This document shows positions 783 through 7,330 of a stretch of DNA of 64,000 nt, in pieces (positions within the stretch are counted from its first letter, which is position 1; every line of letters begins with the position of its first letter). Origin of the DNA: Candidatus Roseilinea sp. (GTDB taxonomy: Bacteria > Chloroflexota > Anaerolineae > J036 > Brachytrichaceae); the NCBI GenBank assembly GCA_026003755.1, contig BPHV01000002.1, positions 372,001 through 436,000 on the forward strand, read 5' to 3'. A program made the position numbers and the translations under genes. A model generated the notes under the pieces. It ran no database searches, was not told where the DNA came from, and saw nothing but the letters and a program-made list of their open reading frames with translations.

Positions 783-1601
783 TCACCCGAAGAGCGCGCG
801 CACCACAGCCAACGCCTCGGCTTCACTCGTCGAGGGGTAAAACTCCAGGCCGATCTTGCCGTCGAAGCCAAGCCGGCGCAGCTCGCGCGCGATGCTGGCG
901 AAGTTGATCTCGCCGGTGCCCGGCTCCTGACGCGTGGGCACATCACCAATGTGCACGCTGTCGTACAGCCCCCAGTAGTCACGCAGCCCCTGGATCAAGT
1001 TGCCGGCGCTGCGTTGCTGGTGGTAGCAATCGAACGCCAGGCGGAGTTGCGGATGGGCGATGCGCCGCACCACATCGGCGGCCAGCTCGTGCGTGCTCAC
1101 CGTAATGCCGCCGTGCAGGTGATACGTGTTCAGCGCCTCGAACCACACCACGATGGGGGTCTTCTCGACCAGTTCCATCACCCGCGCCGCGCCCTCCAGC
1201 AGGTTGGCGTATTTCTGCTGAGGGGTGTAGTCGCGCGCGGGCGGCTTCACCCTTCCCTGGATGTGCGGCAGCCGGGCGTCGGACGCCGGGTTGATCTGCT
1301 CGCTGAACATGAACAGGTGCTGCACGCCCCAGCGCTGTGCGCGCTCCAACGACTCGGCCCAGGCGTCCAGGCACAGCGGCAGGTCATGCGCATCGGTGAG
1401 CGAACCGCCGGCTTCGTCGAAAGTGGAGTTGATCACGCAGCCGTGCGCGCGACAGGCTGCGGCCAACTCATCCATCAGCGCGCCTTTGCTGCGCCAGGCC
1501 CACACGTCGAGGTGACGGATGCCCAGCGCGGCGAACCGCGCTGCGCGCTCGGGCAGCGGGGAGTCGAGGAACCAGAAGTCGGCGTAGCCGGTGTAGAGCA
1601 C
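783..1601 (-). CDS. Sugar phosphate isomerase/epimerase, hydroxypyruvate-isomerase-like TIM barrel
   Basis: A 272-residue AP-endonuclease-2/xylose-isomerase-like TIM barrel with a GTG start. Visible metal and catalytic positions are Glu in VVWFEALN, Asp/His in AFDCYHQQR, His in SVHIGDVPTRQEPGTGE and Glu in IGLEFYPS. The pairing of a YHQQR-like segment with the EPGTGEIN segment is typical of hydroxypyruvate isomerase (Hyi) and related carbohydrate isomerases, so the substrate is probably a small keto/aldo acid or a ketose. There is no signal peptide, so it is cytoplasmic. It lies 62 nt downstream of the GT-C gene on the same strand. The exact substrate cannot be read from sequence, because the family also includes inositol catabolism and tagatose epimerases. 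Confidence 0.8.
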   Translation of the reverse strand: MLYTGYADFWFLDSPLPERAARFAALGIRHLDVWAWRSKGALMDELAAACRAHGCVINSTFDEAGGSLTDAHDLPLCLDAWAESLERAQRWGVQHLFMFSEQINPASDARLPHIQGRVKPPARDYTPQQKYANLLEGAARVMELVEKTPIVVWFEALNTYHLHGGITVSTHELAADVVRRIAHPQLRLAFDCYHQQRSAGNLIQGLRDYWGLYDSVHIGDVPTRQEPGTGEINFASIARELRRLGFDGKIGLEFYPSTSEAEALAVVRALFG

Positions 1602-1663
1602 GGCGATGGGACGACAGCAAGTTTAGGGCGCGGCAAACAGAGGACAAACCCGCGCTTGATCTA

Positions 1664-4045
1664 TCACGAACAGCGTCTCAGCGCGATCTCTCCAATCCTC
1701 ACCCCGCCGTCCGGTGTGCGCGTCGGCGATTCATCCACCGGTAGGCGCGCGCCTGTGTGCGGGTCGTACAGGCCGACGACGACGGCATATGTGCCGGGCA
1801 CGATCTCGGCCGGGATGGTGATCGCGTGACCGTCGGGGATCACTTCGCCGGGCGACCAGACCGATGTCGGGTAGCTGCCGTTGCGCGGTTGGCCATCGTG
1901 CTGCGCGATGACGTCGCCGACGGCGTCACGCAGGTGGACGAAGGCGCTGTAGTCCGTCGTGAGCGCCTGGCCGCCGCGCCAGTAGATCGTGACGGTTGCC
2001 GTCGCGCCGATGCACCCTTCGATCGGTTGCCGGAGCAACTCGACGCCGAGGCCGCCACTCAGCGTCGCGACTTGCGCATGCCTGGCCGGCGCTTCGCCGA
2101 GCGGCACTTTGATCCGCCCGGCGATCACCTCGCGGTCGCCGTCCAGCCAGCGCACGCTGATGTCGTAGGCGCCCTTGCGCGCATCCGGGTAGGGCATGAT
2201 CGGGAAGTCGTACCAGGCTTCTTCGCCCGTCTGGAACAGGTCGGTGTGGATCACGCGCGAGCGCACCGGCAAGCCATCGCCGCGTTGCACTACGATGGGC
2301 TGCACGCGCAGCTCGCGGTCCCCCATCGGCTCGCCGGCCTTCAAGCGCACGCTCACGATGAGCGGCGTCGTCGTCACCACCTCGCGCGCGCTAACGGCGA
2401 TGCCGGTCACCTGCCAGCCCTGGCCGAGGTCATGCGCGCCCTCGGCGATCACGAGCGTCGGCGTGATCGGCGGCGTGACGCGCCGCCATACCGTCATCGG
2501 CGAGCCCCAGAAGCGCGCATCGCTAAACGTGGCCACCGGCGTGTAGATGGCGCGAAACCAGTCGTCTTCCTGTGGGTTGGCGTCGTAGAGCGAGTTGAAG
2601 TTCGTCAGCGCCAGGTAGTCGGGCTGGGTGCGAATCAGGCCGCCGACGAAATCGCCGCGCCGGATGGCGCTCGCTCGCGATGGCCGCGCCAATCCCAGGA
2701 AATCGTCGGCGCGCCGATCGGCGTAGTAGCTCATCACGCCCAACTCGGTCATGCCGATCGTCGCGCCGGGCGGTGTATTGCTGTTCAGCCAGCGCCCGAC
2801 GCGCTCGTAGATCGCCACCTTCGTCTCCGGCAATGCCTTAGAGACCACCTCGGCCGGAGCGGGTGGGGTCGCGCCCTGTAGCACGCGGATGATGTTCAGA
2901 TTGCCGATCAGCAGCGGGATGACGGCCAGCGTCGTCAACAGTTGCGCGGCGCGCTGCGGATGCGCTGTCGTCGTGGCTATCCCGTCCACCCCAACGGCGA
3001 TCAACCCGGCCAAGCCGGGGAGCATCGGCGCGTAGTACCACACGTAGGGGGCAACGCCCAGCGCGGTGTAACCCATGAAGTGCAGCGCCGCCCAGGCGAT
3101 CGGCATGATGAACGGCACGCGATGCAGCCAATGCCATCCCTGTTTGCGCGCCGACTCGACGCTCAGCCAGGCGGCGCGATAGGCCCCCAGGCCGGCGATG
3201 ATGGGGATGAAGATGAACAACGCCGACTGTTGGAGATACGCCTGGATCAGCAGCCGCGCGCCCTCGGGGAAGGTGGTGCCGGTGTAGAAGCCCGTCAGTC
3301 CCGACGACGCCTGAGCCGATTTCACCTGCAAGGTGGCGGGGATGGGTGAGCCGAACTGCGCGATCAGGAAGACGGCCAGCGGCGCATAGGCCAGCGCCGC
3401 AACGGCGAGTAACCTCACGGCCGGGCGGATGACCGCGAGCAGCGCGCGCCAGCCGCTCTCCCGGCGCGCGTCGAGGTCCAGCGCGAACAGCGCGCACAAG
3501 CCGACGACGAGCGCGCCGTCGCCGCGCAGCCCCATGCCGAGGCCGGCCAGTGCGCCCGCCGCCACCAGTTTGCGCGCATCCACGCACACGAACGCCCACA
3601 GGGCAGCCGCCATGAACAACGGCGTCTCGAATCCCACCGTTAGCCAGAGCAACGGTGAGATGAGGCACACCAGGCCGGCAATGAAGCCGAGGGCATCCTG
3701 GCCGCGTCGCCAGCCCATCGCGCACAGCGCACACGCTGCGGCGATCGATCCGCCGGTGCCAAATGCGTGGCTGATCGCCGGAATATCCAGTCCCAGCATC
3801 GCCGGCAAGGCCAACACCAACGCATAGAGCGGCGCGGTCGTGATGAGCGCGTTCTCGGTAGCGCCGGGATTGAACGTGAATCCCAGGCCGCGCGCCAGGT
3901 TGTCGGCGAAGCGGTAGGTAATGAACGGATCGTCGAAGCGGAGGCTGCGGGTGAACAGGCCCAGCACCAGCCCGACGACCATCAGCGTCAGCAGCGCCAG
4001 GGGGAGGTTGCGACTGCGCGGTTTGAGGGTCTTCGTCGCGGTCAC
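1664..4045 (-). CDS. GT-C family membrane glycosyltransferase with C-terminal beta-rich domain
   Basis: 793 residues, GTG start. The first ~390 residues hold about ten hydrophobic helices. The first extracytoplasmic loop carries the DD motif of polyprenyl-phosphate-dependent GT-C enzymes (RFDDPFITYRFADNLARGLG, near residue 36). This DDxFI..R.A.NL pattern resembles ArnT/AftB-type transferases that move sugars from a lipid carrier onto envelope acceptors. The C-terminal half (~400-793) is soluble and has two beta-rich segments; the last (DYSAFVHLRD, then WSPGEVIPDGH) resembles the C-terminal domain often attached to such proteins in Chloroflexota. The gene follows the SDR by 6 nt, so the two are probably co-transcribed and co-translated. 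Acceptor and donor are unknown. Confidence 0.75.
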   Translation of the reverse strand: MTATKTLKPRSRNLPLALLTLMVVGLVLGLFTRSLRFDDPFITYRFADNLARGLGFTFNPGATENALITTAPLYALVLALPAMLGLDIPAISHAFGTGGSIAAACALCAMGWRRGQDALGFIAGLVCLISPLLWLTVGFETPLFMAAALWAFVCVDARKLVAAGALAGLGMGLRGDGALVVGLCALFALDLDARRESGWRALLAVIRPAVRLLAVAALAYAPLAVFLIAQFGSPIPATLQVKSAQASSGLTGFYTGTTFPEGARLLIQAYLQQSALFIFIPIIAGLGAYRAAWLSVESARKQGWHWLHRVPFIMPIAWAALHFMGYTALGVAPYVWYYAPMLPGLAGLIAVGVDGIATTTAHPQRAAQLLTTLAVIPLLIGNLNIIRVLQGATPPAPAEVVSKALPETKVAIYERVGRWLNSNTPPGATIGMTELGVMSYYADRRADDFLGLARPSRASAIRRGDFVGGLIRTQPDYLALTNFNSLYDANPQEDDWFRAIYTPVATFSDARFWGSPMTVWRRVTPPITPTLVIAEGAHDLGQGWQVTGIAVSAREVVTTTPLIVSVRLKAGEPMGDRELRVQPIVVQRGDGLPVRSRVIHTDLFQTGEEAWYDFPIMPYPDARKGAYDISVRWLDGDREVIAGRIKVPLGEAPARHAQVATLSGGLGVELLRQPIEGCIGATATVTIYWRGGQALTTDYSAFVHLRDAVGDVIAQHDGQPRNGSYPTSVWSPGEVIPDGHAITIPAEIVPGTYAVVVGLYDPHTGARLPVDESPTRTPDGGVRIGEIALRRCS

Positions 4046-4051
4046 GGTGTT

Positions 4052-4849
4052 TCAAACCACGATCTCGCCGCCATCTACTTCGATGGACTGGCCGGTGACG
4101 TAGCTGGCGTCGCTCGAAGCGAGGAAGGCCACCACGCTGGCCACCTCGTCGGGCGTGCCCAGCCGGCCCATGGGGATTTGCTCGGCCTTGCGGGCGATGT
4201 GCGTGCCAATCGGCCAGCCTTCGTTGCGACAGATCTCGGCGTCCACCTTGCGCAGCATGTCGGTGAGGATGGAGCCGGGGCACACCGCGTTCACCGTCAC
4301 GCCGAACGGGGCCAGGTCCATCGCTGTTGCGCGGGTCAGGCCGATCACGGCGGCTTTGTTGCTGCAATAGGCGACGCTGTTCTTGAAGCCGGTGCGGCCG
4401 GCGATGCTGCTCATATTGATGATGCGGCCGTAGCGCTGCTGCTTCATCACCGGCGCGACGGCTTTCGTGCACACGAAGACGCCGGTGTAGTTCACCTCGA
4501 TCATCAGGTTCCATTCGTTCATGTCGAGTTGTTCGAGCGGCGTGCCGCGGTAAATGCCGGCGTTGTTCACCCAGACATCCACGCGGCCAAATGCGCGGCA
4601 GATATCGGACACCGCCTGCTGCATCGCGTCATGGTCGGCGACGTTGGCGCTGATCGACAGCGTCTCCACTCCATACGCATGCCCAAGCTGCGCCGCGAGT
4701 TGTTCGCACTTGTCACACTGCAGGTCAATAATCACCACCCGCGCGCCTTCGCAGGCGAAGCGTCGCGCGAACGCCTCGCCTAGCCCTTGCGCGCCGCCGG
4801 TGATCACCACGACTTGATCCTTGAATCGGGTCAGGGGCGTATGCATCAT
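4052..4849 (-). CDS. SDR family NAD(P)-dependent oxidoreductase
   Basis: 265 residues with all classical SDR landmarks: the cofactor-binding glycine motif GGAQGLGEAFA (about residue 18), NNAG (about 92), the active-site Ser in IINMSSIAG, the YxxxK pair in AYCSNKAAV, and a C-terminal YVTGQSIEVDGG segment typical of FabG-like members. It is probably a cytoplasmic oxidoreductase of a sugar, polyol or acyl intermediate. The start is the first of two adjacent ATGs. It sits between the FtsW fusion gene (60 nt upstream) and the glycosyltransferase (6 nt downstream) in an apparent minus-strand operon, which may point to envelope sugar metabolism. The substrate cannot be deduced. Confidence 0.85.
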   Translation of the reverse strand: MMHTPLTRFKDQVVVITGGAQGLGEAFARRFACEGARVVIIDLQCDKCEQLAAQLGHAYGVETLSISANVADHDAMQQAVSDICRAFGRVDVWVNNAGIYRGTPLEQLDMNEWNLMIEVNYTGVFVCTKAVAPVMKQQRYGRIINMSSIAGRTGFKNSVAYCSNKAAVIGLTRATAMDLAPFGVTVNAVCPGSILTDMLRKVDAEICRNEGWPIGTHIARKAEQIPMGRLGTPDEVASVVAFLASSDASYVTGQSIEVDGGEIVV

Positions 4850-4909: not shown

Positions 4910-7330
4910 CTACGCGCCTTCCAACGCGGCGATGGCTCGGATCAACGCTGGTTCATCGCGCGTGGGCGTTTCGATGGCCAGCACGAACACGAGACCGTCG
5001 GCGATGCGAGCGTGCCAACCGACGAACTGATTATCCGCGATTTGAGCAAAGCCGCGGAACGGGGGCAGCGCGCTGCGTCCGACCACCGCTGGGCCGGCTT
5101 GCGCTGCCGGTGCGCTTGAAAGCAGCGTCGGCGTCACTGGACGACCTGCGGCCCACTCGGCCAAGGTGGCGGCGACCCGCAGGGGGGTGACGCGCAGTTT
5201 TCCCTGGCCGATAGTTTCGCTGTAAGTCGCCGTCGTCGGCAGCGGTGTGGCTTCGTTCGGCAGCTCGAACGGCACAGGCCGGTGCAGGTTCAGCGGCGCA
5301 AGATGCGCCATGAAATCGTCCGGCTGATTGAGGACGGCGCGATCGGCCATTGGCGCGTGCGCTTCGACCAGCCAGCGCAGCAACAGGCCGGGCTGATATA
5401 AGCCCTGGGTAGCGCGGTTGACCAGCGGGGCGTCGGGGGCGGTGCGCAGGCGTTCCCAGTCTTGCTCCAACCGGTTCGGGTCGAACGTGGGCGCGCTGGC
5501 CAGCGCCAGCACTTCGCCGGTGCGCCAGTTCATCACCACGACCGCCCCGCGCGGGTTGGTCAGCGTTGGGGTGGCGCGCAGGGCAGCGACGGCGCGGCGC
5601 TGCCAGCTCGCGTCGAGCGTAGCAGTGATCGCGCCGCCGATGCGCGGGCGGTGCAGGAAGTCGTCCAGCCACGTCCGGCTGCCGCGCAGGGTGGCATCGG
5701 CGAACGCCTCCAGCCCGCCTGCGCCGTAGCGCTGGCTGTAGTAGCCGACGGCCGGCGCGGCTTCCGGCAGCGGATACCGTCGTTCGTATCGCGGCGGCGC
5801 CGATTGGCTGCCGCTGCGCGCGGCGCACGGGGCGAGCGGCTGCGGCGCGCCAACGCACGACGAATAGGCCAGCAGGACGCCATCGCGAGCGTAGATCGCG
5901 CCGCGAAAGGTCGCCAGCTCCGCCTCCAGCCGACGCGGGTTATCCGGACGGGCGACCAGCTCCGGCCCGCGCACGATGCTCCAGTAGCCTGTCCCCAGCG
6001 CCAACGCGACCAGCCAGGCCGCGCTGAGGCGCATCGCCCGACTGGCAGCCAGCCCTGTCCGTCGGGCCGGCGGGGCCACGGCGCGCGCAGCGCTCATCGG
6101 CCTGCCTTCGGCGGCATCTGCCGATAGGCGAATGAGCAGACCGAGCATGAAGTAGCTCACCACCAGCGATGTACCGCCGTAGCTGATGAACGGGAGCGTC
6201 ACGCCGGTGAGCGGCAACAGCCCGATGTTGCCGCCGACGATGATGGACACCTGCGTGGCCAGCGCCGCAGCGATGCCGCCGGCCAGCAGCGACCCGTAGC
6301 GATCGCCGGATCGCAGGCCGATGCGCCAGGCGCGCAGGACGAGCGCCGCGAAGCCGGCCAGCCCAGCCAGCGCGCCGGCCAGCCCTAGCTCTTCGCCGAT
6401 CATCACGAACGGGAAGTCGGTGTGAACGGCCGGCACATACCCCGGTCGGCCCTGATTGATGCCCTGGCCCAGCAAGCCGCCGCTGGCCAGGGCGATCAAC
6501 GACTGCACGATTTGAAACGCGCTGCCTTGCGGGTCGCCCCAGGGGTTCAACCAAATGCTCAGTCGCTGCGCCACGCGCGCGGAGAGGAAGTAGCCGGCGA
6601 TGGCCGTGAGGCCCAGCCCGATGGACAGCCCCAGCGGCAAGCGCGCGTCGCCCGTTGCCAGGTAGAGCATGAAGGCGAACGTGATCACCAGCAACGACGC
6701 CGCGCCGAGGTCTTGCTGGATGACGAGCATGGCCAGTGCGATCAGGCCCATCGTGATGGTCGGCGCTAGAGATTGGAGATTGGAGAAATCCCGATGCCTG
6801 CCACGCTCGGTAAAGTAAGCGGCCAGGAAGGCGATCATGAGTAGCCGCAGCAGCTCCGAGGGTTGCACAAAGAAGCTGCCGATGTTTAGCCAAAGGCGCG
6901 GGCCTGCGCCGGAGGGGTTCACACCAAAGGCCAGCGAGACGAGCAACAACGCCAGCGCTGCGATCAACCAAGTATATTTGAATCGGCGCAGCCAACGCAG
7001 GCGGTCGCGCCGGCTACAGACGGCAAGCATGGCTGCGAATGCGACGACCAGCGCCAGGGTTTGCCGCTGCAAAAAGTTGGGGGCAGTGCGCGCGATGGAC
7101 AGCAAACCAAGGCCGGTGAGCATCACGGCGACCGGCAGGATGACGCCATCGCGCGCCGGCGCAACGCGCGCCAGCCACCCATGCGCGACGATGGCAAGCG
7201 CGCTCAGCGCAGCCGGCGCCAGCAGCGGCAGCGGTTCGCTGCGTTGTAACGCCAGCGATGCTGCGCCCAGCCAAGCGGGGAGCAAGCCCAGGCTCAGCAG
7301 TGCAAACGGCGAAGTCACCGACCTGTACAC
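4910..7330 (-). CDS. FtsW/RodA/SpoVE polymerase fused to a degenerate penicillin-binding transpeptidase-like domain
   Basis: 806 residues, GTG start. Residues ~1-420 form a SEDS glycosyltransferase with ten or so helices and the family signature near its end (NIGLLPLTGVTLPFISYGGT). SEDS proteins polymerise peptidoglycan from lipid II. A single helix near residue 440 (SAAWLVALALGTGYWSIV) then leads to a ~330-residue extracytoplasmic domain that aligns with class B PBP transpeptidases (GAVVVMNWRTGEVLALASAP; NRATQGLY; IGQGKLRVTPLRVAATLAEW). The catalytic Ser-x-x-Lys after NRATQGLYQPG is replaced by Leu649-Leu-Leu-Arg652. No KTG triad is visible where GRSALPP stands, and the SxN motif is not found. 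The domain is therefore predicted to be catalytically dead, perhaps a built-in activator of the SEDS half. A heptad repeat (6768-6788) encodes part of an internal loop. Confidence 0.85.
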   Translation of the reverse strand: MYRSVTSPFALLSLGLLPAWLGAASLALQRSEPLPLLAPAALSALAIVAHGWLARVAPARDGVILPVAVMLTGLGLLSIARTAPNFLQRQTLALVVAFAAMLAVCSRRDRLRWLRRFKYTWLIAALALLLVSLAFGVNPSGAGPRLWLNIGSFFVQPSELLRLLMIAFLAAYFTERGRHRDFSNLQSLAPTITMGLIALAMLVIQQDLGAASLLVITFAFMLYLATGDARLPLGLSIGLGLTAIAGYFLSARVAQRLSIWLNPWGDPQGSAFQIVQSLIALASGGLLGQGINQGRPGYVPAVHTDFPFVMIGEELGLAGALAGLAGFAALVLRAWRIGLRSGDRYGSLLAGGIAAALATQVSIIVGGNIGLLPLTGVTLPFISYGGTSLVVSYFMLGLLIRLSADAAEGRPMSAARAVAPPARRTGLAASRAMRLSAAWLVALALGTGYWSIVRGPELVARPDNPRRLEAELATFRGAIYARDGVLLAYSSCVGAPQPLAPCAARSGSQSAPPRYERRYPLPEAAPAVGYYSQRYGAGGLEAFADATLRGSRTWLDDFLHRPRIGGAITATLDASWQRRAVAALRATPTLTNPRGAVVVMNWRTGEVLALASAPTFDPNRLEQDWERLRTAPDAPLVNRATQGLYQPGLLLRWLVEAHAPMADRAVLNQPDDFMAHLAPLNLHRPVPFELPNEATPLPTTATYSETIGQGKLRVTPLRVAATLAEWAAGRPVTPTLLSSAPAAQAGPAVVGRSALPPFRGFAQIADNQFVGWHARIADGLVFVLAIETPTRDEPALIRAIAALEGA
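6768..6788. repeat. Heptanucleotide tandem array (3 x 7) inside the FtsW/RodA gene
   Basis: On the plus strand the units are AGAGATT, GGAGATT and GGAGAAA. The array is 21 nt, so it keeps the reading frame and encodes part of DFSNLQSLA in a loop of the SEDS domain. It has the same 7-nt period as the arrays at 15601 and 54351. Confidence 0.6.

Follow-up and report, generated by a model that had tools for sequence, protein, structure and literature searches.

A natural fusion of a SEDS polymerase to a class B penicillin-binding protein that has lost its transpeptidase motifs in the Chloroflexota

In the window (the whole 64,000-nucleotide stretch of DNA analysed here), the open reading frame at positions 4910..7330 on the minus strand, which starts with GTG, encodes an 806-aa protein in which a SEDS polymerase is fused to a pseudo-class B penicillin-binding protein (PBP), as judged from the reading frame, Pfam and NCBIfam matches, and homologues. 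The host belongs to the phylum Chloroflexota (NCBI lineage), and the nearest named relative is Candidatus Roseilinea (90% identity). Sequence comparison suggests that the fusion is a third SEDS–class B PBP pair, whose PbpA-type partner probably lost its active site in an Anaerolineae ancestor and was kept as a pseudoenzyme that activates or scaffolds the SEDS polymerase.

The N-terminal half contains a SEDS (FtsW/RodA) domain (residues ~10–405, 6116..7303), which also matched FtsW and RodA entries of the PDB by sequence and by fold. The Pfam profile FTSW_RODA_SPOVE (PF01098) aligned to residues 84–405 (E-value 3e-75, 253.8 bits, cut-off 26.4) over profile positions 35–353 of 356. The SEDS catalytic Asp of the fourth extracellular loop is present as D305 within an HTDF motif (6416..6418), and all 153 aligned SEDS sequences have Asp at the corresponding position. 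On the basis of the motif, we take D305 to be equivalent to D262 of E. coli RodA and D297 of E. coli FtsW. These are the catalytic Asp residues of RodA (PMC10449877) and FtsW (PMC8765783), respectively. The protein scored below both NCBIfam equivalog cut-offs (ftsW, 257.7 versus 337.5 bits; rodA, 224.5 versus 336.7 bits), indicating that it is a SEDS protein, yet neither FtsW nor RodA proper.

A poorly conserved linker (residues 406–432, 6035..6115) joins the SEDS domain to a TM helix and a pedestal of the PbpA dimerisation type (residues 433–590, 5561..6034), in which PBP_dimer_2 (PF21922) matched residues 504–552 above its cut-off. The remainder (residues 591–806, 4913..5560) is a shrunken transpeptidase-like domain; the Transpeptidase profile (PF00905) matched residues 595–648 above its cut-off, the best stretch being profile positions 1–43 of 299. 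When ten members of the fusion's family were aligned, profile against profile, with 19 active relatives, the match had a probability of 100, an E-value of 5e-61 and 37% identity. Together with the PF21922 match and the PF00905 fragment, this confirms the first-pass annotation's view that the C-terminal half is related to class B PBPs, and extends the homology to TM helix, pedestal and transpeptidase fold of the PbpA type. AlphaFold models were built with 10 homologues and reached a pLDDT of 65 at full length (~40 in the pedestal) and of 55 for the C-terminal half, and because the models are weak no SEDS–pedestal interface was read from them. The best fold match of the low-confidence C-terminal model was M. 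tuberculosis PbpA (3lo7, E-value 8e-8).

None of the three class B PBP motifs, SxxK, SxN and KTG, is present in the fusion. The SxxK position is occupied by LLLR (residues 649–652, 5375..5386), preceded by YQPG; MAFFT, a motif scan and the profile–profile alignment agreed on this substitution, the last placing YQPG-LLLR on YTPG-STFK of the active relatives. About 51 residues including the SxN motif are gone at 5341..5342, as seen from a gap in the profile alignment and at the SxN columns of the MAFFT alignment. The KTG position holds FRG (residues 758–760, 5051..5059; MAFFT), which lies within a predicted strand (residues 758–765). A scan of all 806 residues for SxxK found none, nor was there a KTG-like site after residue 603 or an SxN-like site after residue 490, and the entire protein has only two lysines, K118 and K711. 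It had been proposed from the sequence that a SEDS polymerase is fused here to a dead transpeptidase, with LLLR in place of the Ser-x-x-Lys and no SxN or KTG left; the Pfam domains, D305 and the lost motifs bear this out in each respect. We rejected the idea that a better alignment might recover an intact SxxK or KTG, as neither MAFFT nor the profile–profile alignment gave one, and near homologues keeping both motifs were looked for and not found. Annotation pipelines would label such genes penicillin-binding transpeptidases, a label to be read with caution.

The comparison with homologues that the first-pass annotation had called for showed the motif loss in all homologues of the same family and in nearly all of those from Anaerolineae. 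Genomes sampled within the class and phylum yielded 130 SEDS partners with readable motifs; since the sampling was biased towards the best matches to the fusion, the counts do not represent phylum-wide frequencies. In this sample, 98 partners were dead and 32 intact. All but one of the dead partners (97/98) came from Anaerolineae, and 21 of the 22 partners from other Chloroflexota classes were intact. In the dead partners the Ser column holds A, T, D, S, G and others (11 retain Ser at the first SxxK position without the Lys), the SxxK Lys column holds Q, E, R and others but never K, the SxN Asn is in most cases replaced by Pro or deleted, and the KTG Lys is mostly H, F or W. The SxN segment is deleted in the fusion's family and in 45 of the 98. 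Full-length dead partners (e.g. L035, L122 and L123) have gained [AG]CPxPF at the SxN site and frequently carry His at the KTG Lys. One partner, L103 (G006), has a low-complexity EELEELGAVGELEEIGELREL in place of the S motif-to-SxN segment and an intact KTG, and its sister L098 has all motifs intact; L103 was not counted, because it probably reflects an internal deletion or a misassembly. Two loci outside Anaerolineae are also fused: L062 (G307) is dead and bears the same GCP signature, and L074 (G422) has fully intact motifs. They represent an independent fusion and, possibly, a transfer or a second loss.

We next consider the history of the loss on a SEDS-only tree, which omits the columns of the trait itself. 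Two dead/intact changes were needed on this tree, so that the loss looks essentially like one ancient event, and eight fused/split changes were needed; the trees were quick ones, and a single origin is for this reason only likely. A branch with weak support (75.7) had 96 dead rows on one side. L062 was placed apart from the other dead rows, which may reflect independent loss, transfer or misplacement, and a topology holding all 97 dead rows together, L062 included, was not rejected (p-AU 0.30). Within a 106-row subclade (SH-aLRT 98, faster model), every row with a readable partner was dead. Fusions of SEDS and partner arose repeatedly, and the motif loss appears to predate most of them. The phenomenon is therefore older and wider than the first-pass annotation supposed, as unfused partners are also dead. 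Many loci, whether their pair is intact, dead and split or dead and fused, have a conserved MTAP gene upstream of it, which supports the orthology of active and dead pairs. Downstream of the fusion, a minus-strand run conserved in the genus (783-4849) comprises genes for an SDR, for a large membrane protein of 793 aa that on visual inspection resembles glycosyltransferase 39, and for a sugar-isomerase-like product.

Selection on the dead domain within the genus is mostly purifying. We calculated dN/dS (NG86) for four regions of the fusion in five pairs within the genus. Values for the dead domain were 0.21–0.28 in four of the pairs; the closest pair gave 0.475, on a small number of counted changes. 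The SEDS region gave 0.14–0.25, and the linker, at 0.28–0.87, exceeded the other three regions in every pair. In the phylum sample, mean conservation in active versus dead partners was 2.49 versus 2.33 bits for the pedestal, 3.46 versus 2.17 bits for the S motif and 3.68 versus 1.62 bits for KTG, and the interval between the S motif and KTG gave 2.50 versus 1.68 bits. The TM helix and pedestal form the part of class B PBPs that contacts SEDS proteins. These values indicate that the SEDS-contacting part has been held, whereas the catalytic site has not.

The genome of the fusion (G000) contains three SEDS genes. A RodA gene lies near that of a PBP2-like protein and an FtsW gene near that of an FtsI-like protein, both PBPs having SxxK and KTG; a MecA-like class B PBP, the third active-looking one, and class A PBPs are also encoded. 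Transpeptidase-domain matches numbered 4–10 per genome in all 22 sampled genomes. The N-terminal half of one class A PBP (L005, G000 contig C3, ~318.5-322 kb) looks frame-shifted, either biologically or through an assembly slip.

Activation and crosslinking have been separated in published work. For E. coli RodA, the TM helix of PBP2 is sufficient for stimulation (PMC10449877). RodA is activated through the pedestal, and a RodA–PBP2 fusion made by engineering is functional (PMC6207328). PBP2B and PBP1 continue to support division when their catalytic activity is abolished (PMC8078798), and SpoVD-S311A partly supports asymmetric division when SpoVE is present (PMC12713402). On the strength of this separation, we take the C-terminal half to be a putative constitutive activator or scaffold. 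The transpeptidase site would have been lost in the ancestor of a large Anaerolineae clade, with the partner retained as a pseudoenzyme; in the fusion's family, the partner would then have been joined to the polymerase and the dead domain would have shrunk. The TM helix and pedestal may bind to the SEDS half, keeping it in the polymerising state. The fusion itself would carry out no crosslinking, a task that for its glycan strands would fall to PBP2, FtsI, the MecA-like PBP or class A PBPs. Its polymerase activity should accordingly escape beta-lactams that bind its own partner. The first-pass annotation had suggested a pure activator, with crosslinking left to another protein. The conserved TM helix and pedestal, the relaxed catalytic motifs and the purifying selection on the dead domain all fit this reading, as do the universal SEDS Asp and the other active-looking transpeptidases in the genome; activation itself we infer.

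Other explanations have to be weighed against activation. The dead domain might mainly be a scaffold or sensor, attaching to nascent strands or bringing in an active PBP through its PbpA-type dimerisation domain so that crosslinking occurs in trans, rather than an activator of the SEDS protein. Since a TM helix alone suffices for E. coli RodA (PMC10449877), activation leaves the retained ~216-residue transpeptidase-like core unexplained and leaves room for such a role, and the [AG]CPxPF signature and frequent His of full-length dead partners suggest a surface that was kept and changed; however, the segment bearing this signature is deleted in the fusion's family and in 45 of the 98 dead partners, and we consider a mainly scaffolding or sensing role unlikely. 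In full-length dead partners the motif positions hold a conserved Cys and often a His, which could also be read as an active site rebuilt with other residues and endowed with a new catalytic activity. However, none of the Ser, Cys, His or Lys residues beyond position 590 is shared by all members of the fusion's family, which has lost the SxN segment, and the motif positions vary freely, which makes this reading extremely improbable.

The stepwise shrinkage from full-length to shortened dead domains, together with the reduced conservation of the core, would be expected of a decaying relic heading for loss. That reading is very improbable, given that the loss is apparently ancient while the domain is still kept in 97 sampled Anaerolineae loci, that dN/dS is 0.21–0.28 in four of five pairs and that the pedestal has lost hardly any conservation relative to active partners. 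A sequencing or assembly error, which may account for the low-complexity replacement in L103, has a negligible probability for the fusion and was rejected: the identical motif-less state recurs in many assemblies made independently within the genus and family, which excludes chance as well as a local sequencing error, and the frame is open and constrained at the codon level.

The likely reading is a pseudoenzyme partner that activates or scaffolds its polymerase. Because the partner has long been dead and is still preserved by selection, its role may lie only in switching on or scaffolding the polymerase; the further proposal, that across a whole bacterial lineage a non-catalytic class B PBP has come to serve solely to switch on its SEDS polymerase, seems to us about evenly poised. 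If so, glycan polymerisation would be uncoupled both from crosslinking by the partner and from beta-lactam inhibition of that partner. A search of openly available literature, with few subscription papers or preprints among it, brought up no account of a SEDS-partner PBP that is dead in nature, and within the literature found, activation and transpeptidation have been separated by laboratory mutants only. The natural dead clade reveals which parts the non-catalytic role needs, as TM helix and pedestal are kept while catalytic motifs drift, and the fusion, a synthase in one chain and possibly a minimal one, lends itself to structural and biochemical studies.

Among known systems, the fusion resembles the actinobacterial RodA–PbpA pair and M. 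tuberculosis PbpA (PDB 3lo7, 3un7) in its PbpA-type pedestal (PF21922) and, as far as the predicted model goes, in the top fold match of its C-terminal half; in the active Chloroflexota relatives, SEDS and PBP genes are adjacent, as in the actinobacterial pair. Unlike PbpA, which keeps SxxK, SxN and KTG, the fusion has lost all three motifs and combines SEDS and PBP in one chain. With RodA–PBP2 of E. coli and T. thermophilus and with FtsW–FtsI, it shares a SEDS protein with a class B PBP partner, a retained catalytic Asp and, by analogy, a proposed activation through TM helix and pedestal, whereas those pairs are separate proteins with an active transpeptidase. A partner without transpeptidase activity is also found in the B. 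subtilis PBP2B, S. aureus PBP1 and C. difficile SpoVD-S311A mutants, which support division, and SEDS and PBP share one chain in the functional engineered RodA–PBP2 fusions. By contrast with these laboratory point mutants and linker fusions, the Chloroflexota case arose in nature, is apparently ancient and has been retained in many families.
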